A stretch of 64,000 nt of DNA from Cyanobium usitatum str. Tous (GTDB taxonomy: Bacteria > Cyanobacteriota > Cyanobacteriia > PCC-6307 > Cyanobiaceae): NCBI RefSeq assembly GCF_963920485.1, contig NZ_OY986431.1, positions 1,860,001-1,924,000 of the forward strand, in the 5' to 3' direction. A program made the position numbers and the translations under genes. Shown one piece after another: positions 7,431 to 63,875 of the stretch; within the stretch, counting starts at the first letter, position 1; each line of letters starts with the position of its first letter. Under the pieces are notes generated by a model that was not told the origin of the DNA, ran no database searches, and worked only from the letters and a program-made list of their open reading frames with translations.

Positions 7431-8093
7431 TTATTGAATTTGACGCGGCCCAAACAGGCCGCTACCAATGCGAACCCAGGTGCTGCCGGCCGCAGCCGCC
7501 TCGGGCCAGTCGCCACTCATGCCCATTGAGCGCTCCGGCAGGCCCAGCTGGGTCGCCAGGGCGTCGCACTCGCCAAACAGGTCCCGGCGCTCGGCCTCGC
7601 CCAGGCCCAGGGGCGCCAAGGTCATCAAGCCCAAGGGCTGCAGGGGAGCCAGGCCGGCCAGCTCGGGCCAGTGCTGGCAGAGCTCAGCGGGCTCAAAGCC
7701 GGTCTTGGCGGGATCGGGGCGAAATTTCACCTGAAAAAACACCGCCGGCTGGCGCTGCTCCTCGGCGGCGATGCGGGCCAGGCGCCTAGCCAGCTCAAGG
7801 CTGTCGAGAGAGTGGATGGTGCCGAAGTGGCGCACCACACCCCGGGCCTTATTGGCCTGCAGCCGGCCGATGAAATGCCAGTCGAGGGGCGCCAGATCGG
7901 CCAGCTCGGCTTGCTTGAGCACCGCCTCCTGCAGGCGACTTTCACCAAAGCTGAGCTGGCCAGCGGCCACCGCTTCGCGAATCCGATCAGAGGGTTGGCC
8001 CTTGCTCACCGCCAGCAGGCGGCAGCCTGGCGGCAGCTCGGCCTGGAGGGCGGCCAGTCGCCCAGCCAAGGATTCAGATAAAGGTCTGGTCAA
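7431..8093 (-). CDS. yggS: YggS-family pyridoxal phosphate homeostasis protein
   Basis: About 220 residues. Single-domain TIM-barrel PLP-binding protein thought to control PLP and amino-acid pools. Family features are LLAVSKGQP (the PLP lysine), [38 protein letters not shown] and [20 protein letters not shown] near the C-terminus. The TTG start at 8093 overlaps the pipX stop by 20 bases; the longer ATG frame from 8174 would add 27 unrelated residues. The pair pipX-yggS is conserved in cyanobacteria (the second gene is called pipY there), which supports the call. Confidence 0.92.
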
Positions 8094-8370
8094 ACAACTG
8101 ACGCCAATGGGCGTGGGCCTCGGGACCGTCGCGGCGGGAGCGCACCAGGTTTTGCTCAGCAAAGTGGCGGGCATCCATCAGCGGCACCACCTCAAAGGTG
8201 GCGCCACGGGGCTGCAGGGTGACGACGAAAAAAATGCGCTGGGCGTAGAGGGTGGCGAACAGATCCCGGCCTTCGGAAACCGCCGCCACCCGATAGAGCA
8301 TCCCGAAGGTGGGATGGTTGAGGTAGCGCTCCGGACTCACAAATGCGCTGCTCGTCAATGCGCTGCTCAC
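8074..8370 (-). CDS. pipX: PII-interacting protein X
   Basis: 98 residues. A small Tudor-like protein that in cyanobacteria co-activates the nitrogen regulator NtcA and is titrated by the signal protein PII. The signature YLNHPTFGMLYRVA and DLFATLYAQRIFFVVTL is clear, followed by FEVVPLMDARHFAEQNLVR. The N-terminus (MSSALTSSAFVSPE) is slightly longer than usual. It is followed by yggS with overlapping ends, indicating translational coupling. Confidence 0.95.
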   Translation of the reverse strand: MSSALTSSAFVSPERYLNHPTFGMLYRVAAVSEGRDLFATLYAQRIFFVVTLQPRGATFEVVPLMDARHFAEQNLVRSRRDGPEAHAHWRQLFDQTFI

Positions 8371-8391
8371 CGATGCGGTCGAACTTGGCCA

Positions 8392-9324
8392 TTAAAGGTC
8401 ACCGACTTTCCAACGCAGCAGGAGCATCAGCAGCAGCAAGCCCGCCGCCGTGGCGTTGAGCAGGCCCAAGCCCCGCCCCACAACTGCAGGTCGCAGCAGC
8501 TGGTCGGGCGGCAGCCAGACCCCGCCGCGGGCAAGGAGCGCCTCGGCTCCCTGCTCGGAGCGCAGCAACACATTGGCCAGCAGCCGCTCGCCCAGGGCCA
8601 GCACCAAAGCCAAGCCCCCCTTCCAGCCAAGCTGCTTGAAATTCACCGCCCGGGTTGCAATAGATCGCAACAGGTTTTGCAACTCCTCCTGCACCAGGGG
8701 CAGGAAGCGCAGGGCCAGCAGCAGGGTGAAACCGAGCCTCTCCACCGGCAGGCCCAGCCGGGCCAGGGGCGCCAGCAGCCAGCTGATCGCCCACACCAAC
8801 TGTTCGGGGGAGGTGCTGAGCAGCAGCAGGTTGGCGCTGTGCACCAGAGTGAATAGCAGCGTGGCGCCGTTGAGGCCCAGCTCAGCTGAACGGCGGGTCA
8901 CCAGTAGGGGGCCAGCGCGCAGCAGCACCCAGGGGGTGCCTGAGCGCTCGGGCGGCGGGCTGCCAGGGGGACCGGGCTGGAGCCGCAACTCCGCCGGCGG
9001 CCGCTGCAGGGCTGCGGGTGACGCCGTGCCCGCCGGTAGCAGGGCCGCTAGGCCGCCCACCAATAGGGCCAGGGCCAGTAGCAGCGGCACGCTGCGGCGC
9101 CATAGCCGCCAGCTGAGCCCGCTAGCGGCGGTAATCAGCAGCAACAAGGCCACCAGGCTGAGACGCCAGAGCGGTCCTGCCAGGATCGGCGTTACTAGAA
9201 AAATCAGACTCCAGGCCAGCTTCAGGCGTGGATCAAGCCGGCGCAACCAGCTGCCGCCCGTGGCCGCCTCCGCCGGATCCGGGGCGGCAAATTGGCCGAT
9301 GGGGATCTGGCGTAAAAAATCCAC
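8392..9324 (-). CDS. Energy-coupling factor transporter T component (CbiQ/EcfT family)
   Basis: 310 residues. Membrane component that couples ATPases to substrate-binding S subunits in ECF vitamin and metal transporters. The N-terminus has GSWLRRLDPRLKLAWSLIFL, followed by several hydrophobic helices, and the C-terminal half carries LALRFLPLVQEELQNLLRS and ATRAVNFKQLGWKGGL, matching the cytoplasmic coupling region. No ATPase or S subunit is adjacent, so it may serve unlinked partners. It sits between der and pipX, 21 bases from pipX. Confidence 0.87.
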   Translation of the reverse strand: MDFLRQIPIGQFAAPDPAEAATGGSWLRRLDPRLKLAWSLIFLVTPILAGPLWRLSLVALLLLITAASGLSWRLWRRSVPLLLALALLVGGLAALLPAGTASPAALQRPPAELRLQPGPPGSPPPERSGTPWVLLRAGPLLVTRRSAELGLNGATLLFTLVHSANLLLLSTSPEQLVWAISWLLAPLARLGLPVERLGFTLLLALRFLPLVQEELQNLLRSIATRAVNFKQLGWKGGLALVLALGERLLANVLLRSEQGAEALLARGGVWLPPDQLLRPAVVGRGLGLLNATAAGLLLLMLLLRWKVGDL

Positions 9325-56583: not shown

Positions 56584-57189
56584 GTGATGGCGAGCTCCTT
56601 GGAGCGATTGGTGCGGATGTTGAGCGGTGGCTTCAACAACCAGGAGCAGGCCTTTGAGAATCCGCCCCTGTACGCCCACATCCTGGTCAAATTACGTCCC
56701 CTCCCCCAGCTGGCACTGGGCTCCCTACTGCTGGAGCAGAGCTATGCAATTAACCCGGCAGCTCCCTACCGAATTCGGGTATTAAGGGCGGAAGCACAGA
56801 ACGGCCAGCTGACGATCGTCAACCAGGCGCTGGCAGACGATCAACGCTTCTGGGGAGCGGTTGAGGACAGCGAACTGCGTAGCCGCATTCAAACCAGTGA
56901 CCTCATGCCCCTAGCTGGCTGCGCCTACGTGGTGCGCGAAGAGAGCGAAGGATTCGTGGGGGAAGTGGAGCCTGGATGTCGCTGTCTGGTGGAGCGCAAG
57001 GGAAGCACCTCCTACCTAGTGAGCCGGTTGGAACTAGACCCAGCTGGCATGCGCACGATCGATAGGGGCCACGATCCGATCACCCACGAACATCTTTGGG
57101 GATCACTCGCGGGTCCCTTTGAATTTGCCCGCACCGACGACTACAGCGACGAAATACCAGCCCATTGGTTTGAGAAGTGGCGTGATTGA
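56584..57189 (+). CDS. cpcT: CpcT/CpeT-type phycobilin lyase
   Basis: 201 residues; GTG 56584 and ATG 56587 are adjacent alternatives. Motifs SLERLVRMLSGGFNNQEQAF, ENPPLYAHILVKLRPLP, LEQSYAINPAAPYRIRVLRA, GCAYVVREESEGFVGEVEPG and CLVERKGSTSYLVSRLEL match the CpcT/CpeT family, which attaches bilin to the Cys153-equivalent of phycocyanin beta (CpcT) or phycoerythrin beta (CpeT). With phycocyanin nearby and no phycoerythrin gene seen, CpcT is favoured. Confidence 0.85.
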   Translation: MMASSLERLVRMLSGGFNNQEQAFENPPLYAHILVKLRPLPQLALGSLLLEQSYAINPAAPYRIRVLRAEAQNGQLTIVNQALADDQRFWGAVEDSELRSRIQTSDLMPLAGCAYVVREESEGFVGEVEPGCRCLVERKGSTSYLVSRLELDPAGMRTIDRGHDPITHEHLWGSLAGPFEFARTDDYSDEIPAHWFEKWRD

Positions 57190-58047: not shown

Positions 58048-58566
58048 ATGTTCGACGCCTTCACCAAGGTTGTAGCCCAGGCTGATGCCCGTGGCGAATT
58101 CATCAACGCCGGTCAAATCGACGCACTTGCGGCGATGGTTTCCGAGAGCAACAAGCGTATGGATGCTGTGAACCGCATCACCTCCAACGCATCCAAGATC
58201 GTCACCAATGCGGCCCGCGATCTTTTTGAAGCTCAGCCGGCGCTAACAGCTCCTGGTGGGAACGCCTACACCAGCCGCCGCATGGCTGCGTGCCTACGCG
58301 ACATGGACATCATCCTCCGTTACATCACCTACGCGATTTTCAACGGCGATGCATCCGTGCTGGAAGACCGCTGCCTCAACGGCCTGCGGGAGACCTACCT
58401 GGCGCTCGGCGTTCCTGGCGCTTCGGTTTCTGAAGGCGTTCGCAAGATGAAGGACGCAGCCATTGCAATTGCCAACGACCGCAACGGCATCACCCAGGGA
58501 GACTGCTCAGCTTTGATCAGCGAAATCGGCACCTACTTCGACCGCGCTGCAGCAGCCGTCGGCTGA
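58048..58566 (+). CDS. cpcB: Phycocyanin beta subunit
   Basis: 172 residues. [60 protein letters not shown] (bilin Cys82) and [20 protein letters not shown] (Cys153) are diagnostic of the rod phycocyanin beta chain. Whether it belongs to C-phycocyanin (cpcB) or a marine R-phycocyanin (rpcB) is not decidable by eye. The alpha gene follows 42 bases later. Confidence 0.96.
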
Positions 58567-58608: not shown

Positions 58609-59097
58609 ATGAAGACTCCCCTTACCGAAGCCGTCGCAGCAGCTGATTCCCAGGGACGGTTCCTCTCAAACACTGAGCTCAACTCAGCTTTTGGTCGCTT
58701 TGACCGCGCCAAAAATGCTCTTGCAGCTGCTAAGGGACTAACAGCCAACGCAGACAACTTGGTGAACGGCGCTGCCCAGGCCGTTTACAACAAGTTCCCC
58801 TACACCACCCAGATGCAGGGTGCGAACTATGCCGCTGATGCCCGTGGCAAGGCGAAGTGCTCCCGTGACATCGGTTACTACCTCCGCATGGTCACCTACT
58901 GCCTCGTGGCTGGTGGCACCGGCCCCATGGATGAGTACCTGATTGCCGGGATTGATGAAATCAATCGCGCTTTTGAGCTCTCCCCCTCTTGGTATGTGGA
59001 AGCTCTTAACTATATCAAAGCCAACCATGGCCTTGCCGGCGAAGCAGCAACAGAGGCAAACAATTACCTCGATTACGCAATCAACGCACTTGTTTGA
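58609..59097 (+). CDS. cpcA: Phycocyanin alpha subunit
   Basis: 162 residues. [60 protein letters not shown] (bilin Cys84) and [20 protein letters not shown] are typical of the alpha chain. It could be rpcA in an R-phycocyanin strain. A strong terminator closes the beta-alpha unit. Confidence 0.96.
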
Positions 59098-59122: not shown

Positions 59123-59155
59123 AATAGCCTCCCCGTCGAAGGGAGGCTATTTTTA
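59123..59155 (+). terminator. Rho-independent terminator after phycocyanin genes
   Basis: Stem ATAGCCTCCC / GGGAGGCTAT with a CGTCGAA loop, extended by one A-T pair, followed by TTTTA. Confidence 0.93.
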
Positions 59156-59174: not shown

Positions 59175-59702
59175 ATGGGCGAAGCCAAGCATAAAGACAG
59201 CAGTCGTAAAGAATTAGTCGCCCACAGCAATTCGGCAAAAGTCATTCAGCCGGGGAAACCGTCCTCTTGCCACAAGAAAACCGTCATGCCGCCCAAAGAA
59301 GTTTTAAGCATAAAAGACTTAATAAAACAAGCCGGAGAGGAACAGGAGATTCAGTACGGAACAAACGAGGCACGCTTGCGCATAGACCTCAGAATTGAAG
59401 ACATTGGGCTTTGGAAATCCCATCACAACAAAAATCCTGACAACAACAATATTCTGCTTGCCTGCGAGAGCAATAGCGGCGAACTATCAGAAACCACTCT
59501 GACCTGGGTAGTCGGAGCAGCAATACGTTCTGCATTGGTAGAAGGAACGGCCCAAGCAAAGGATCTGCTCAAAAACCTCGGAGTGTCAGAAGAACTGGTG
59601 GATCTGGCATCTGAACACTGTCCAGGTCTAGGCGAGAACGCAATATGGGCTTTCCATTTGGAGCGACATGGCTGGCTTACCGCAACTCCTGTGGAATCGT
59701 GA
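59175..59702 (+). CDS. Unrecognised protein downstream of phycocyanin
   Basis: 175 residues, AAAGGG just before the ATG. A basic, Ser/Lys-rich N-terminus precedes a globular part with ARLRIDLRIEDIGLWKSHHN, a repetitive Asn stretch (KNPDNNNILL), TTLTWVVGAAIRSALVEGTA and EHCPGLGENAIWAFHLERHG. No motif I can assign. Codon use is clearly more AT-rich than upstream genes. It is followed 26 bases later by the allophycocyanin-like gene. Confidence 0.7.
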   Translation: MGEAKHKDSSRKELVAHSNSAKVIQPGKPSSCHKKTVMPPKEVLSIKDLIKQAGEEQEIQYGTNEARLRIDLRIEDIGLWKSHHNKNPDNNNILLACESNSGELSETTLTWVVGAAIRSALVEGTAQAKDLLKNLGVSEELVDLASEHCPGLGENAIWAFHLERHGWLTATPVES

Positions 59703-59728
59703 ACCTGACAAGAGAAGCAAATCGAAAA

Positions 59729-60286
59729 ATGGAGATCAGCCAACTGGCCAAGGCTGCAAAAGTATGCGGCATAAGCAATCGAGACAGTCTCCCCGAAGCA
59801 GTGAGAGCGGTGGTAGCTAAAGCCGATACTTCAAAACGGTTCCTAAACACAGAAGAAATAGGAGAGATTTGCAAATATTGCAAAACCTCAGAACATGCCG
59901 TTGAGCTACTGATAGCTGAGTCAAACCAGGTGGTTGATAAAGCAAGACAACAACTACTAGCCCAACAACCACAGCTCATCCTGCCTGGCGGGAAATTACA
60001 CCCAGAACCAAGGGCAGAAGCCTGCTGGCGAGATTGCCAACAGTTTCTACGGGTGATCATTTACGGGGTCGCGTGCGATTGCACAGAAGTAACAGATGCG
60101 GCAGGTATGACAGCAATGCGTCAGTTATACAAGGAGATGGAAGTACCTATCCCTGCGATGATGTATGTCCTAGCCCAGATGCGAACACTAACCACACAAG
60201 TCCTAAAAACTTCTGGCCATCTTCGCGAGGCAACCTGCCTCGACAAGGCTTTTGATAATCTGATCAAGGCCTTGCAACCAACCTAG
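59729..60286 (+). CDS. Divergent allophycocyanin-like phycobiliprotein (AplA-like)
   Basis: 185 residues from ATG giving MEISQLAKAAKVCGISNRDS; a 28-codon longer frame overlaps the upstream gene. The globin-type phycobiliprotein fold is recognisable: FLNTEEIGEICKYCKTSEHA, QVVDKARQQLLAQQPQLILP, then the bilin-site analogue CWRDCQQFLRVIIYG, where Cys99, Arg101 and Asp102 match the Cys84/Asp87 signature, and MRQLYKEMEVPIPAMMYVLA. It is neither rod alpha nor beta and looks most like the AplA branch. Several extra Cys residues are present. Confidence 0.78.
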   Translation: MEISQLAKAAKVCGISNRDSLPEAVRAVVAKADTSKRFLNTEEIGEICKYCKTSEHAVELLIAESNQVVDKARQQLLAQQPQLILPGGKLHPEPRAEACWRDCQQFLRVIIYGVACDCTEVTDAAGMTAMRQLYKEMEVPIPAMMYVLAQMRTLTTQVLKTSGHLREATCLDKAFDNLIKALQPT

Positions 60287-60392: not shown

Positions 60393-61124
60393 ATGAATCA
60401 AAAGCATCACGCATCTTTGTTGCCGGAAGATCCAAGCCAATGGAGTGCTCCTGAAAAGTGCGAACCTACTGCGGCGCAGCATCAACCCGTAGACGCGCGC
60501 GGTGCAAGCTGGAACAACCGTGTTCTACAACCACTGGACCTGCGCCAGGCAAACCTTTGTCGCATGGATATAAGGGGAACAGACCTAAGCAACTGTCTAC
60601 TAGAAGGATGCAATCTAACACTTGCTCGTTATGACAAAAAGACTCGTGTACCCGCTGATTTTGATCTTGAAAAATCAGGAGCAGTAGGCCCTGGTGCAGC
60701 ACTTAATGGGGCTTTTCTAAATGGTGCAGATCTCAGGGGTATGGATCTTCGGAACACCAACTTCATGGGTGCCTACCTAAGCGGATGTGACTTAAGTGGT
60801 TCAGTATTAGACGGAACACGTTTTGTTGGAGCAGATCTAAGGTTTGCGAAATTGCAAGGCTGTCGCTGCATCGCAACACGCTTTACCGGCAGTCAGTTGC
60901 AGCAGGCAGACTTTAGGGCTGCTGATTTAACAGAGGCAATCCTGGATGGGGCTGAAAGTATTCAAGGCGCTGACTTCAGTCAGGTAACAGGCATGGACAA
61001 GAAACAGCTCGCAAACCTCCTAACTCGCTCTCACATCGAACTGGATTGTTGGAACCCACTCACCCGGCAAGCCACCAGGGCGACCCTTGAATCGTTGCTT
61101 GAATCGGCAACAAGAACGGCATAG
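60393..61124 (+). CDS. Pentapeptide-repeat protein
   Basis: 243 residues. From about residue 45 to 210 it has A(D/N)LxG-type five-residue repeats such as ALNGAFLNGADLRGMDLRNT, NFMGAYLSGCDLSGSVLDGT and RFVGADLRFAKLQG, which fold into a right-handed beta helix. The N-terminal 40 residues and the helical C-terminus are unique. Function unknown; such proteins often act as scaffolds. It lies between the phycobiliprotein-like gene and the rod linkers, in AT-richer DNA. Confidence 0.85.
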   Translation: MNQKHHASLLPEDPSQWSAPEKCEPTAAQHQPVDARGASWNNRVLQPLDLRQANLCRMDIRGTDLSNCLLEGCNLTLARYDKKTRVPADFDLEKSGAVGPGAALNGAFLNGADLRGMDLRNTNFMGAYLSGCDLSGSVLDGTRFVGADLRFAKLQGCRCIATRFTGSQLQQADFRAADLTEAILDGAESIQGADFSQVTGMDKKQLANLLTRSHIELDCWNPLTRQATRATLESLLESATRTA

Positions 61125-61240
61125 CGAGCTGGCACTGCCAGACAAAGCGAAGCGATTGAAACAAAAGATTGAGGTTTATAAAGCTAAGGTCGAGGGTTAT
61201 GGGATGCCAGGGATAATTGCAAGGTATCGCCAAGAAAGTC

Positions 61241-62125
61241 ATGCCGTTTGGTCCAGCATCCATCCTGGGTGTGGAGAGCTTCTCCCAAGAGTGCGAAGCA
61301 CCACGTGAGCTAGTGCCAGGAGACGACGACCAAGCGAAGGAGTCAGTAATCCGGGCTGTCTACAGACAGGTGCTTGGGAATGCCTACGTCATGGAGAGCG
61401 AACGACAAGTTGTTGCAGAATCGCAGTTCAAGCTAGGCGAGATCAGCGTTAGAGAACTGGTACGACGTATCGCCAAAAGCGATTTGTATAGCACCCGCTT
61501 CTTTGACTCATGCGCGCGCTACCGCTATATCGAACTAGCATTTCGCCACCTACTCGGACGTGCTCCAGCAGATTTTGAGGAAATGCGAGGTCATGCCGAA
61601 AGACTAGATACAAGTGGGTATGAAGCAGACATCGACAGCTTCTTAGATTCTGACGAGTATCAGAACACCTTTGGTGAGTGGACAGTCCCATATCAACGTG
61701 GTTGGAAAACAGAATCCTGTGCAACGCTTCAAGAATTCACCTGGTCATTCCAGTTGCTGCGTGGAAACAGCAGCAGCAGCCTTAAAGGCAACTTGGCTGG
61801 AATCAGGAGCCGCCTTGGCGGTGCTGCTTATCAGAACCGACCCCTCCCTGTGGTAGCTCCCTCATCACAAGATACCCAAGGCTGGAGCTTCCGCCCAGCT
61901 GCCAACCTGACAGATCCTGTTACACGGATAGGTGTACTTGCAGGTGAAGCAGGCAAAGTCTATCGAGTTGAAGTAACAGCCTATAGGGCCAATAACGTGC
62001 GCCCCACATCACGCTACAGGAAGGCAAACAGAGTATTATTCGTCCCTTTCAACAAGCTATCTGAGCAGTATCAACTTATTCACCGCGAGGGAGGCAAGAT
62101 CGCAAGCATCACACCACTGAGTTGA
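61241..62125 (+). CDS. cpcC: Phycobilisome rod linker with CpcD cap domain
   Basis: 294 residues from ATG giving MPFGPASILGVESF; longer frames add nothing. PBS-linker domain at about 20-155 (VIRAVYRQVLGNAYVMESER, FRHLLGRAP, DIDSFLDSDEYQNTFGEWTV), then a linker and a C-terminal CpcD-like domain at about 238-292 (YRVEVTAYRANN, LIHREGGKIASITPL). This matches the 30-35 kDa rod linkers that join phycocyanin hexamers. The exact symbol is uncertain in picocyanobacteria. Confidence 0.88.
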   Translation: MPFGPASILGVESFSQECEAPRELVPGDDDQAKESVIRAVYRQVLGNAYVMESERQVVAESQFKLGEISVRELVRRIAKSDLYSTRFFDSCARYRYIELAFRHLLGRAPADFEEMRGHAERLDTSGYEADIDSFLDSDEYQNTFGEWTVPYQRGWKTESCATLQEFTWSFQLLRGNSSSSLKGNLAGIRSRLGGAAYQNRPLPVVAPSSQDTQGWSFRPAANLTDPVTRIGVLAGEAGKVYRVEVTAYRANNVRPTSRYRKANRVLFVPFNKLSEQYQLIHREGGKIASITPLS

Positions 62126-62258: not shown

Positions 62259-63875
62259 ATGACAGCAAATCAAAGCAATTCACTTGACTTCGGAGCCACT
62301 CAGCTTCTTGAAGCCCCAGCGAGTTTTTCTCGCAAAAGAACAGATGACGTAGAAACTGCAACAAGCGAAGATCAATTTCGCAACCAGCAGCTACTGAATA
62401 CACCTACAGCATTCACCGCAAGCGACAATGCTGCTTTTCACATCGCAGTAAGAGCTGCATACCGACAGGTATTCGGCAATGTTCAGCCGATGGAAAGCGA
62501 GCGCCTACTGAGTGCCGAATCAAGACTACGCAATGGGGACATAAACGTACGAGAATTCGTACGGAGATTGGCACAATCCAGTTTTTATCGCTCACGCTTC
62601 TTTGATGCCGTATCTCCGCATCGAGCAGTTGAGCTTAACTTCAAGCATTTGCTGGGCCGCCCCCCCCAGAATCAAGCAGAGGTTGCTAGCCATGTGGCAT
62701 TAATCGCCACAAGTGGCTTCACAGGCGAGATCAATAGCTATCTTGATTCCGATGAGTATCTAAAGTCCTTTGGCGAGGAAACAGTTCCATACCCAACAAG
62801 CTGGAACTCTCCAGTGGGCCAGCCTCAAGCAGCATTCAACAGGATCGCAGCACTTGAGCAGAATTTTGCTGGCAGCGACACAGCAGTAGGGACAAAAAGT
62901 CAGCTGTTAGGAAATCTAGTTAGCGGCTACAGGCTCTCGATAAAGGTGCCTGCACAGGTGTACCGATCCAGTTCCCTTGGACAGATGGGTAGAACAGGAT
63001 CTGGATCGGCCAGCATGCTAGAGCCTGTCAAGCGGAACAATGCAGACGGAGGCGACTCAACGCCAATGCGTGGTGATCTGTACGTTGGCTTTGGACTTGG
63101 TCAGCGCCAGCAGGAAGTGTTCGAGCGCTGCAGCGGCGATTCAGCTGATCAGATTACTGCGCTGATCCGCTCGGTATACCGCCAAGTGCTGGGCAATCCC
63201 CATGTGATGGACAGCGAGCGCAACTTAACCGCAGAGAGCCAATTTGCTGAGGGAAGACTTAGCACCCGCGAATTTATAAGAGCGGTTGGACTCTCGGCCG
63301 ACTATCGCCGGCGCTTCTTCGAAACAAATGCTCCCTACCGTTTTGTGGAGCTAAATTTCAAACATATTTTGGGGCGTGCACCCGCATCTCAGGCCGAGAT
63401 GAGTGAGCATCTACAAAGGCTAGCCATTCACGGCTATGACGCAGAAATCAACAGCTACGTTGATAGCGAAGAGTATCAGAACACCTTCGGTGAGAATACT
63501 GTTCCCTACCTGCGTGTAGCAACTGAAAATGGTCGCGAACAGGTTTCCTTTAATCGGCACATAGCACTAGTTCAAGGCTATGCGGCCAGTGACACCATTC
63601 AATGTGCCTCAAGCCTGCTAAATTCGGTAGCAACAAGATCTGCACCTACAAACTGGACAAATACAACCGTACGGATTAACAGGCTTGGTGCAGCCTCTGG
63701 ATCAGCTGATCCCACATCCAAGCGGTTCCGTATTGTCGTCAATGCCCAGCCTGCAGGCGGCCGCCAACGCAACCCGAACGCCAGTTACGTAGTAAGCGGC
63801 AATGACATTACAAGCCAACTGGGATACATCCATAGACGCGGTGGTCGGATCATTTCTGTGACCGAAATCACCTAG
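62259..63875 (+). CDS. Large rod linker with two PBS-linker domains and a CpcD cap
   Basis: 538 residues. First linker domain at about 62-185 (AVRAAYRQVFGNVQPMESER, LNFKHLLGRPP, EINSYLDSDEYLKSFGEET), second at about 298-420 (LIRSVYRQVLGNPHVMDSER, ELNFKHILGRAP, EINSYVDSEEYQNTFGENT), then a CpcD-like tail at about 488-535. A Ser/Gly-rich stretch joins the two linker domains. Such a protein could bridge several hexamers in one rod. Similar double linkers occur in marine Synechococcus rod loci, but I cannot assign a symbol. Confidence 0.85.
   Translation: MTANQSNSLDFGATQLLEAPASFSRKRTDDVETATSEDQFRNQQLLNTPTAFTASDNAAFHIAVRAAYRQVFGNVQPMESERLLSAESRLRNGDINVREFVRRLAQSSFYRSRFFDAVSPHRAVELNFKHLLGRPPQNQAEVASHVALIATSGFTGEINSYLDSDEYLKSFGEETVPYPTSWNSPVGQPQAAFNRIAALEQNFAGSDTAVGTKSQLLGNLVSGYRLSIKVPAQVYRSSSLGQMGRTGSGSASMLEPVKRNNADGGDSTPMRGDLYVGFGLGQRQQEVFERCSGDSADQITALIRSVYRQVLGNPHVMDSERNLTAESQFAEGRLSTREFIRAVGLSADYRRRFFETNAPYRFVELNFKHILGRAPASQAEMSEHLQRLAIHGYDAEINSYVDSEEYQNTFGENTVPYLRVATENGREQVSFNRHIALVQGYAASDTIQCASSLLNSVATRSAPTNWTNTTVRINRLGAASGSADPTSKRFRIVVNAQPAGGRQRNPNASYVVSGNDITSQLGYIHRRGGRIISVTEIT

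Follow-up and report, generated by a model that had tools for sequence, protein, structure and literature searches.

The question raised by this locus is what a phycobiliprotein-like gene, placed between the phycocyanin and rod linker genes of Cyanobium usitatum str. Tous, encodes and what its product does. The window that was analysed comprises 64,000 nucleotides (contig NZ_OY986431.1, positions 1,860,001 to 1,924,000), and the gene was found in it, as earlier described, as an open reading frame of 185 codons at 59729-60286 (+). Proteins of the AplA class, to which its product is assigned below, have been called photoreceptors of unknown function for two decades. Co-distribution with phycoerythrin, adjacency to pebAB and lyase genes, and the presence of aplA on plasmid islands turn this vague question into one that can be put to a direct test.

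Identification of aplA and its gene model

An earlier note on this DNA, made from the sequence alone, had proposed a divergent phycobiliprotein that is not a normal rod alpha or beta chain and may be an AplA-type allophycocyanin-like protein. The first claim was confirmed by a strongly significant match to the Pfam profile Phycobilisome PF00502 (E 6.7e-34; 117.5 bits vs a cut-off of 22.2), and the closest relatives in the PDB are allophycocyanin alpha chains (E of approximately 1e-17). The second also held: the best NCBIfam equivalog was ApcA, whose score of 77.6 bits is below the cut-off of 270, and none of the antenna equivalog cut-offs (ApcA/B/D/F, CpcA/B and CpeA/B) was reached. In a maximum-likelihood tree of 73 proteins, whose rows include neither the Fremyella AplA sequence nor those of bilin biosynthesis-associated globins (BBAGs), the window protein and 22 relatives formed one clade (23 rows) with 100/100 support, apart from ApcA, ApcB, ApcD, ApcF, CpcA, CpcB, CpeA and CpeB. 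When plasmid-encoded copies were added, the clade grew to 26 rows. Tree, profile and conserved residues uphold the AplA-type assignment, and the gene is almost certainly aplA, with AplA as its product. With the A1 profile, 254 confirmed relatives were found in cyanobacterial loci of named genomes; they extend from Cyanobium and Synechococcus as far as Nostoc, Calothrix, Moorena and Microcoleus. A phage origin of the gene was considered and rejected, as no relative was found in IMG/VR or INPHARED.

The start codon of aplA is better placed at GTG 59699 than at 59729, which gives a product of 195 aa. It was moved because the ATG at 59729 is absent from two of the seven close genomes compared, and the GTG is conserved in all seven, where it overlaps the stop codon of the upstream gene unk4 (GTGA). 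The upstream frame itself starts at ATG 59286, not 59175. The features of the locus are as follows (residues in 195-aa numbering):

56584..57189 (+), Pfam CpeT match, E 5.4e-51 (cpcT in the window order)
58048..58566 (+), cpcB, phycocyanin beta (NCBIfam TIGR01339, 318 bits, above cut-off)
58609..59097 (+), cpcA, phycocyanin alpha (NCBIfam TIGR01338, 295 bits, above cut-off)
59123..59151 (+), strong terminator-like hairpin in the gap between cpcBA and unk4-aplA, 11 pairs with a T-rich tail (pattern scan)
59286..59702 (+), unk4, 138 aa, uncharacterised, a conserved partner that precedes aplA in picocyanobacteria
59699..60286 (+), aplA, 195 aa from GTG 59699, GTGA overlap with the unk4 stop
59699..59791 (+), AplA-specific N-terminal extension, approximately 31 residues, predicted helical
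60023..60034 (+), bilin-attachment motif C109-W110-R111-D112 (C-x-R-D)
60393..61124 (+), unk5-type pentapeptide-repeat protein (Pfam Pentapeptide)
61217..62125 (+), phycobilisome rod linker (PBS_linker_poly and CpcD)
62259..63875 (+), double-domain rod linker, 538 aa (two PBS_linker_poly and a weak C-terminal CpcD)

Gene order and the upstream partner unk4

The order in the window is cpcT, cpcB, cpcA, unk4, aplA, pentapeptide protein and linkers. The phycoerythrin genes are located approximately 10 kb downstream, just past the window end; this downstream region of the genome carries CpeS, CpeT, a cpeR-like gene, a CpeY-like lyase and other HEAT-repeat lyases, together with cpeA, cpeB, pebA and pebB, and after pebA/pebB there are ORFs resembling ferrochelatase and heme oxygenase (read by eye). 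The position of the gene had been regarded as unusual, a view that has to be abandoned because the gene order was already published. In marine Synechococcus, in which Six et al. had already named the gene aplA (PMC2246261), unk4 lies upstream of aplA and unk5, encoding the pentapeptide protein, is nearby (Six et al. 2007, PMC2246261). In the type IIB cluster, cpcBA is upstream of unk4/aplA and hemH follows pebAB (Larsson 2014, PMC4139726; Sanchez-Baracaldo 2019, PMC6363710), and cpcBA-unk4-aplA is the published type IIB order (PMC2246261, PMC4139726, PMC6363710). Neither the protein class nor the gene order of the locus is new. The unk5 pentapeptide family was found near aplA in 43 of the 81 loci compared and in two of the three plasmid islands described below.

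The hairpin at 59123-59151, which comes from a pattern scan and by itself is no evidence of function, separates cpcA from unk4 and suggests that unk4-aplA is probably expressed below the antenna level. The name unk4 was taken from Six et al. 2007 (PMC2246261) and was assigned here by position. Pfam and PDB searches with its product gave no relative worth naming; its dN/dS of 0.11-0.26 points to purifying selection. The unk4 and aplA codons overlap or abut (GTGA/ATGA-type) in many picocyanobacterial genomes. Among the loci examined, unk4 was restricted to picocyanobacteria, and so it is not the general partner of AplA.

Three further observations were made. In a Synechococcus UW140-type MAG (L085 7401-8618, identical to L164), unk4 and aplA form a single frame of 405 codons; this was seen in one assembly, and in relatives a stop separates the two genes. 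A second cpcB (genome G000:C1:1204520-1205011, L063), unlinked to cpcA and placed near the window CpcB in the tree, resembles the orphan cpcB genes reported for WH5701 and RS9917. Inside the phycoerythrin cluster, L052 encodes a DUF2656 protein (8327-8752) and, at 8054-8314, a protein of 87 aa that matches CpcD weakly.

Bilin site, cysteines and predicted structure

The earlier proposal that the protein keeps a bilin site gained support at the level of single residues, the pocket being judged from aligned residues. The C-x-R-D motif is intact: in the alignment its three conserved residues (Cys, Arg, Asp) fall on C81/R83/D84 of ApcA, C109, R111, D112 and Y144 are invariant in 48/48 AplA sequences, and the C, R and D of the motif are likewise invariant in all 50 other phycobiliproteins sampled. 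We infer that the AplA of Cyanobium usitatum str. Tous would bind a bilin. In one genome (G010, locus L004) the motif reads CWHD instead of CWRD, with His in place of the otherwise invariant Arg.

Beyond the motif, AplA has its own pattern of conservation. Invariant AplA-specific residues include Trp110, Phe116, Leu100, Pro102 and Thr132, and the superfamily-conserved Asp and Arg (D43 and R118 in the window protein) are kept. Antenna-type conserved residues have been lost: ApcA G111, E114, R36 and E148, invariant or nearly so in the 50 other phycobiliproteins, are altered in AplA. The count of about eight cysteines given previously proved to be exactly eight, most of the extra ones being common to the genus and not to the wider AplA family.

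The AplA class is recognised in part by an N-terminal extension of approximately 28 residues relative to allophycocyanin. In the window protein, residue 32 aligns with ApcA residue 1 and the profile match begins at position 31-32; the extension is conserved across the AplA class and is modelled with high confidence. In the AF2 model (pLDDT 96.7), AplA is predicted to have the phycobiliprotein globin fold: the Foldseek matches shown were all phycobiliproteins (E of approximately 1e-6), with TM values of 0.5-0.6 when scaled to query length and as high as 0.73 when scaled to target length. Superposition on phycobiliprotein crystals was poor (approximately 8 A). A control model of CpcB from the window was also approximately 5 A off most phycocyanin crystals, its best match being dissociated CpcB, so the deviation of AplA is at least partly an effect of single-chain modelling, and a refolded X-Y hairpin in AplA was rejected as a candidate feature because the control deviates as well. 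The AplA model interrupts the helix at the junction of Y and A (H51-61, H65-89), and in the control CpcB model Y and A are unbroken (H21-46), which is a milder structural hint.

Co-occurrence of AplA and phycoerythrin

A comparison of 291 genomes of the class revealed that 68 encode both AplA and CpeB, 9 have AplA with no detected CpeB, 16 have CpeB without AplA, and 198 lack both. Counted by genus, these figures were 34, 5, 9 and 82, respectively (Fisher 9e-18; such values ignore shared ancestry, which the genus-level count merely softens). Among the 150 phycobilisome-bearing genomes of the family, defined as those with an allophycocyanin-type match, 67 carry both, 3 AplA only, 8 CpeB only and 72 neither. 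In the three family genomes with AplA and no CpeB (G011, G132 and G154), aplA lies 1-6 kb from a contig start and the absence of cpe genes may reflect assembly gaps. In 59 of 80 named loci (and in 38 of the 46 that are full-length) a phycoerythrin-specific gene lies no more than 8 kb from aplA. AplA is thus very likely tied to phycoerythrin. Several phycoerythrin genomes lack AplA, and these, with the nine AplA-only genomes of the class, indicate that phycoerythrin does not require it in every genome. In the part of the literature that was searched, the link was found for marine PEII strains (PMC2246261) and the wider pattern was not found stated.

The association extends to plasmids. The 40.8-kb mobilizable plasmid pP880102 of Rippkaea orientalis PCC 8801 carries cpeBA, pebAB followed directly by aplA, a gene for a pentapeptide protein, lyases, linkers and a cpeR homolog. 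A comparable set is present on plasmid pP742401 of Gloeothece PCC 7424; on a plasmid of Pseudanabaena PCC 7367, aplA is located 7 kb from cpeB. All three plasmid-encoded AplA proteins contain CWRDFWHFLR and fall inside the AplA clade. The three plasmids (NC_011723.1, NC_011738.1 and NC_019690.1; L202, L201 and L200) bear compact phycoerythrin islands, whole or partial, each with aplA, and on them the gene is annotated merely as "phycobilisome protein" or "phycocyanin".

Proposed role of AplA

The best overall explanation, which we regard as probable, is that AplA acts as a bilin-loaded accessory factor of the phycoerythrin module and not as an antenna subunit. Within the phycobiliprotein superfamily it would be a globin that binds a bilin but has lost the antenna-subunit role. 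Translational coupling would allow AplA and Unk4 to be produced together, probably apart from the abundant phycocyanin message. AplA would most likely carry one covalent phycobilin on Cys109, and the bilin-loaded protein could then report bilin or light status to phycoerythrin production, or assist it. The regulatory or reporter step is put forward tentatively, at somewhat less than even chances; the role would be regulatory rather than catalytic. No output domain was seen in the AplA sequence, so that signalling would have to go through a partner. The earlier note had offered a photosensor, a bilin carrier or a special assembly subunit: co-distribution and plasmids narrow this to a phycoerythrin-tied role, and sequence cannot choose among the three.

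The alternative that survives best, possible but on balance unlikely, casts AplA as a factor in the maturation or assembly of phycoerythrin, i.e. a bilin acceptor, carrier or chaperone working with CpeS/CpeT/CpeY-type lyases and PebA/PebB. Besides its place in the plasmid islands, aplA adjoins pebAB or stands in line with cpeS-cpeT-cpeR in several lineages (loci L087, L090, L102, L089, L119, L121 and L133). However, the invariance of the attachment Cys suggests that a bilin would be bound stably and covalently and not passed on, AplA has no lyase-type fold, and some phycoerythrin genomes do without it.

It is improbable that AplA is a general light sensor, i.e. a photoreceptor of chromatic acclimation with no tie to phycoerythrin synthesis itself. 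This reading agrees with a passage of PMC2246261 which, citing Montgomery et al., calls AplA a photoreceptor of unknown function, but the near-exclusive co-occurrence with CpeB and the presence on plasmid phycoerythrin islands favour a part in the production or control of phycoerythrin over general light sensing. Less probable still is a minor phycobilisome subunit (a special rod or core subunit, terminal emitter or quencher). The phycobiliprotein fold, the retained D43 and R118 and the location of aplA among linker genes are in keeping with it, yet several antenna-invariant residues are altered, there is an additional N-terminal helix, and Fremyella AplA is reportedly absent from phycobilisomes. 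A decaying, functionless allophycocyanin paralog, to which relaxed conservation outside the bilin motif and a dN/dS of 0.55 to the nearest strain (based on few changes) might point, can practically be dismissed in view of class-wide conservation, the invariant motif and a dN/dS of approximately 0.2-0.3 over larger distances, indicative of purifying selection.

The accessory-factor reading can be carried one step further, as a conjecture to which we give only a small chance: AplA may be a dedicated, mobile part of the phycoerythrin module, complexed with Unk4 in picocyanobacteria, and the extra cysteines of the genus might add a redox response to the light or bilin response.

Comparison with known systems

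By sequence, ApcA and ApcD are the closest relatives of AplA among solved structures and they have the C-x-R-D motif in common with it; AplA differs in its separate clade, an identity of approximately 24-29%, an additional N-terminal helix and altered conserved residues. In 2004 Montgomery et al. reportedly described an AplA of Fremyella diplosiphon with a covalent bilin and absent from phycobilisomes, two traits known for this AplA only; the features said to define it are an N-terminal extension, retained bilin residues and substitutions at antenna-conserved positions. Both PMC2246261 and PMC6363710 cite the 2004 paper (J Bacteriol 186:7420). The window protein shares with Fremyella AplA the N-terminal extension, the ApcA-like body, the bilin-contact residues and the altered antenna-type residues, whereas the genus Cyanobium adds several lineage-specific cysteines. 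Picocyanobacterial AplA proteins, including that of the window, show a 3-residue deletion relative to allophycocyanin, which was rejected as a trait of the AplA family since it is present in only part of it.

Like AplA, BBAGs are non-antenna bilin-binding globins, several with C-x-R-D (PMC10151467); in contrast to it, they are described as forming a sister lineage of the light-harvesting phycobiliproteins (PMC10151467). With the type IIB and marine (PEII) Synechococcus clusters, the locus has in common the unk4-aplA order and a close unk5 (PMC2246261, PMC4139726, PMC6363710), and with type IIB also cpcBA upstream and a putative hemH downstream of pebAB. In marine strains cpcGII lies between aplA and unk5, whereas in the window unk5 directly follows aplA. 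What the present analysis adds to the known AplA is the class-wide co-occurrence with phycoerythrin and the plasmid islands.
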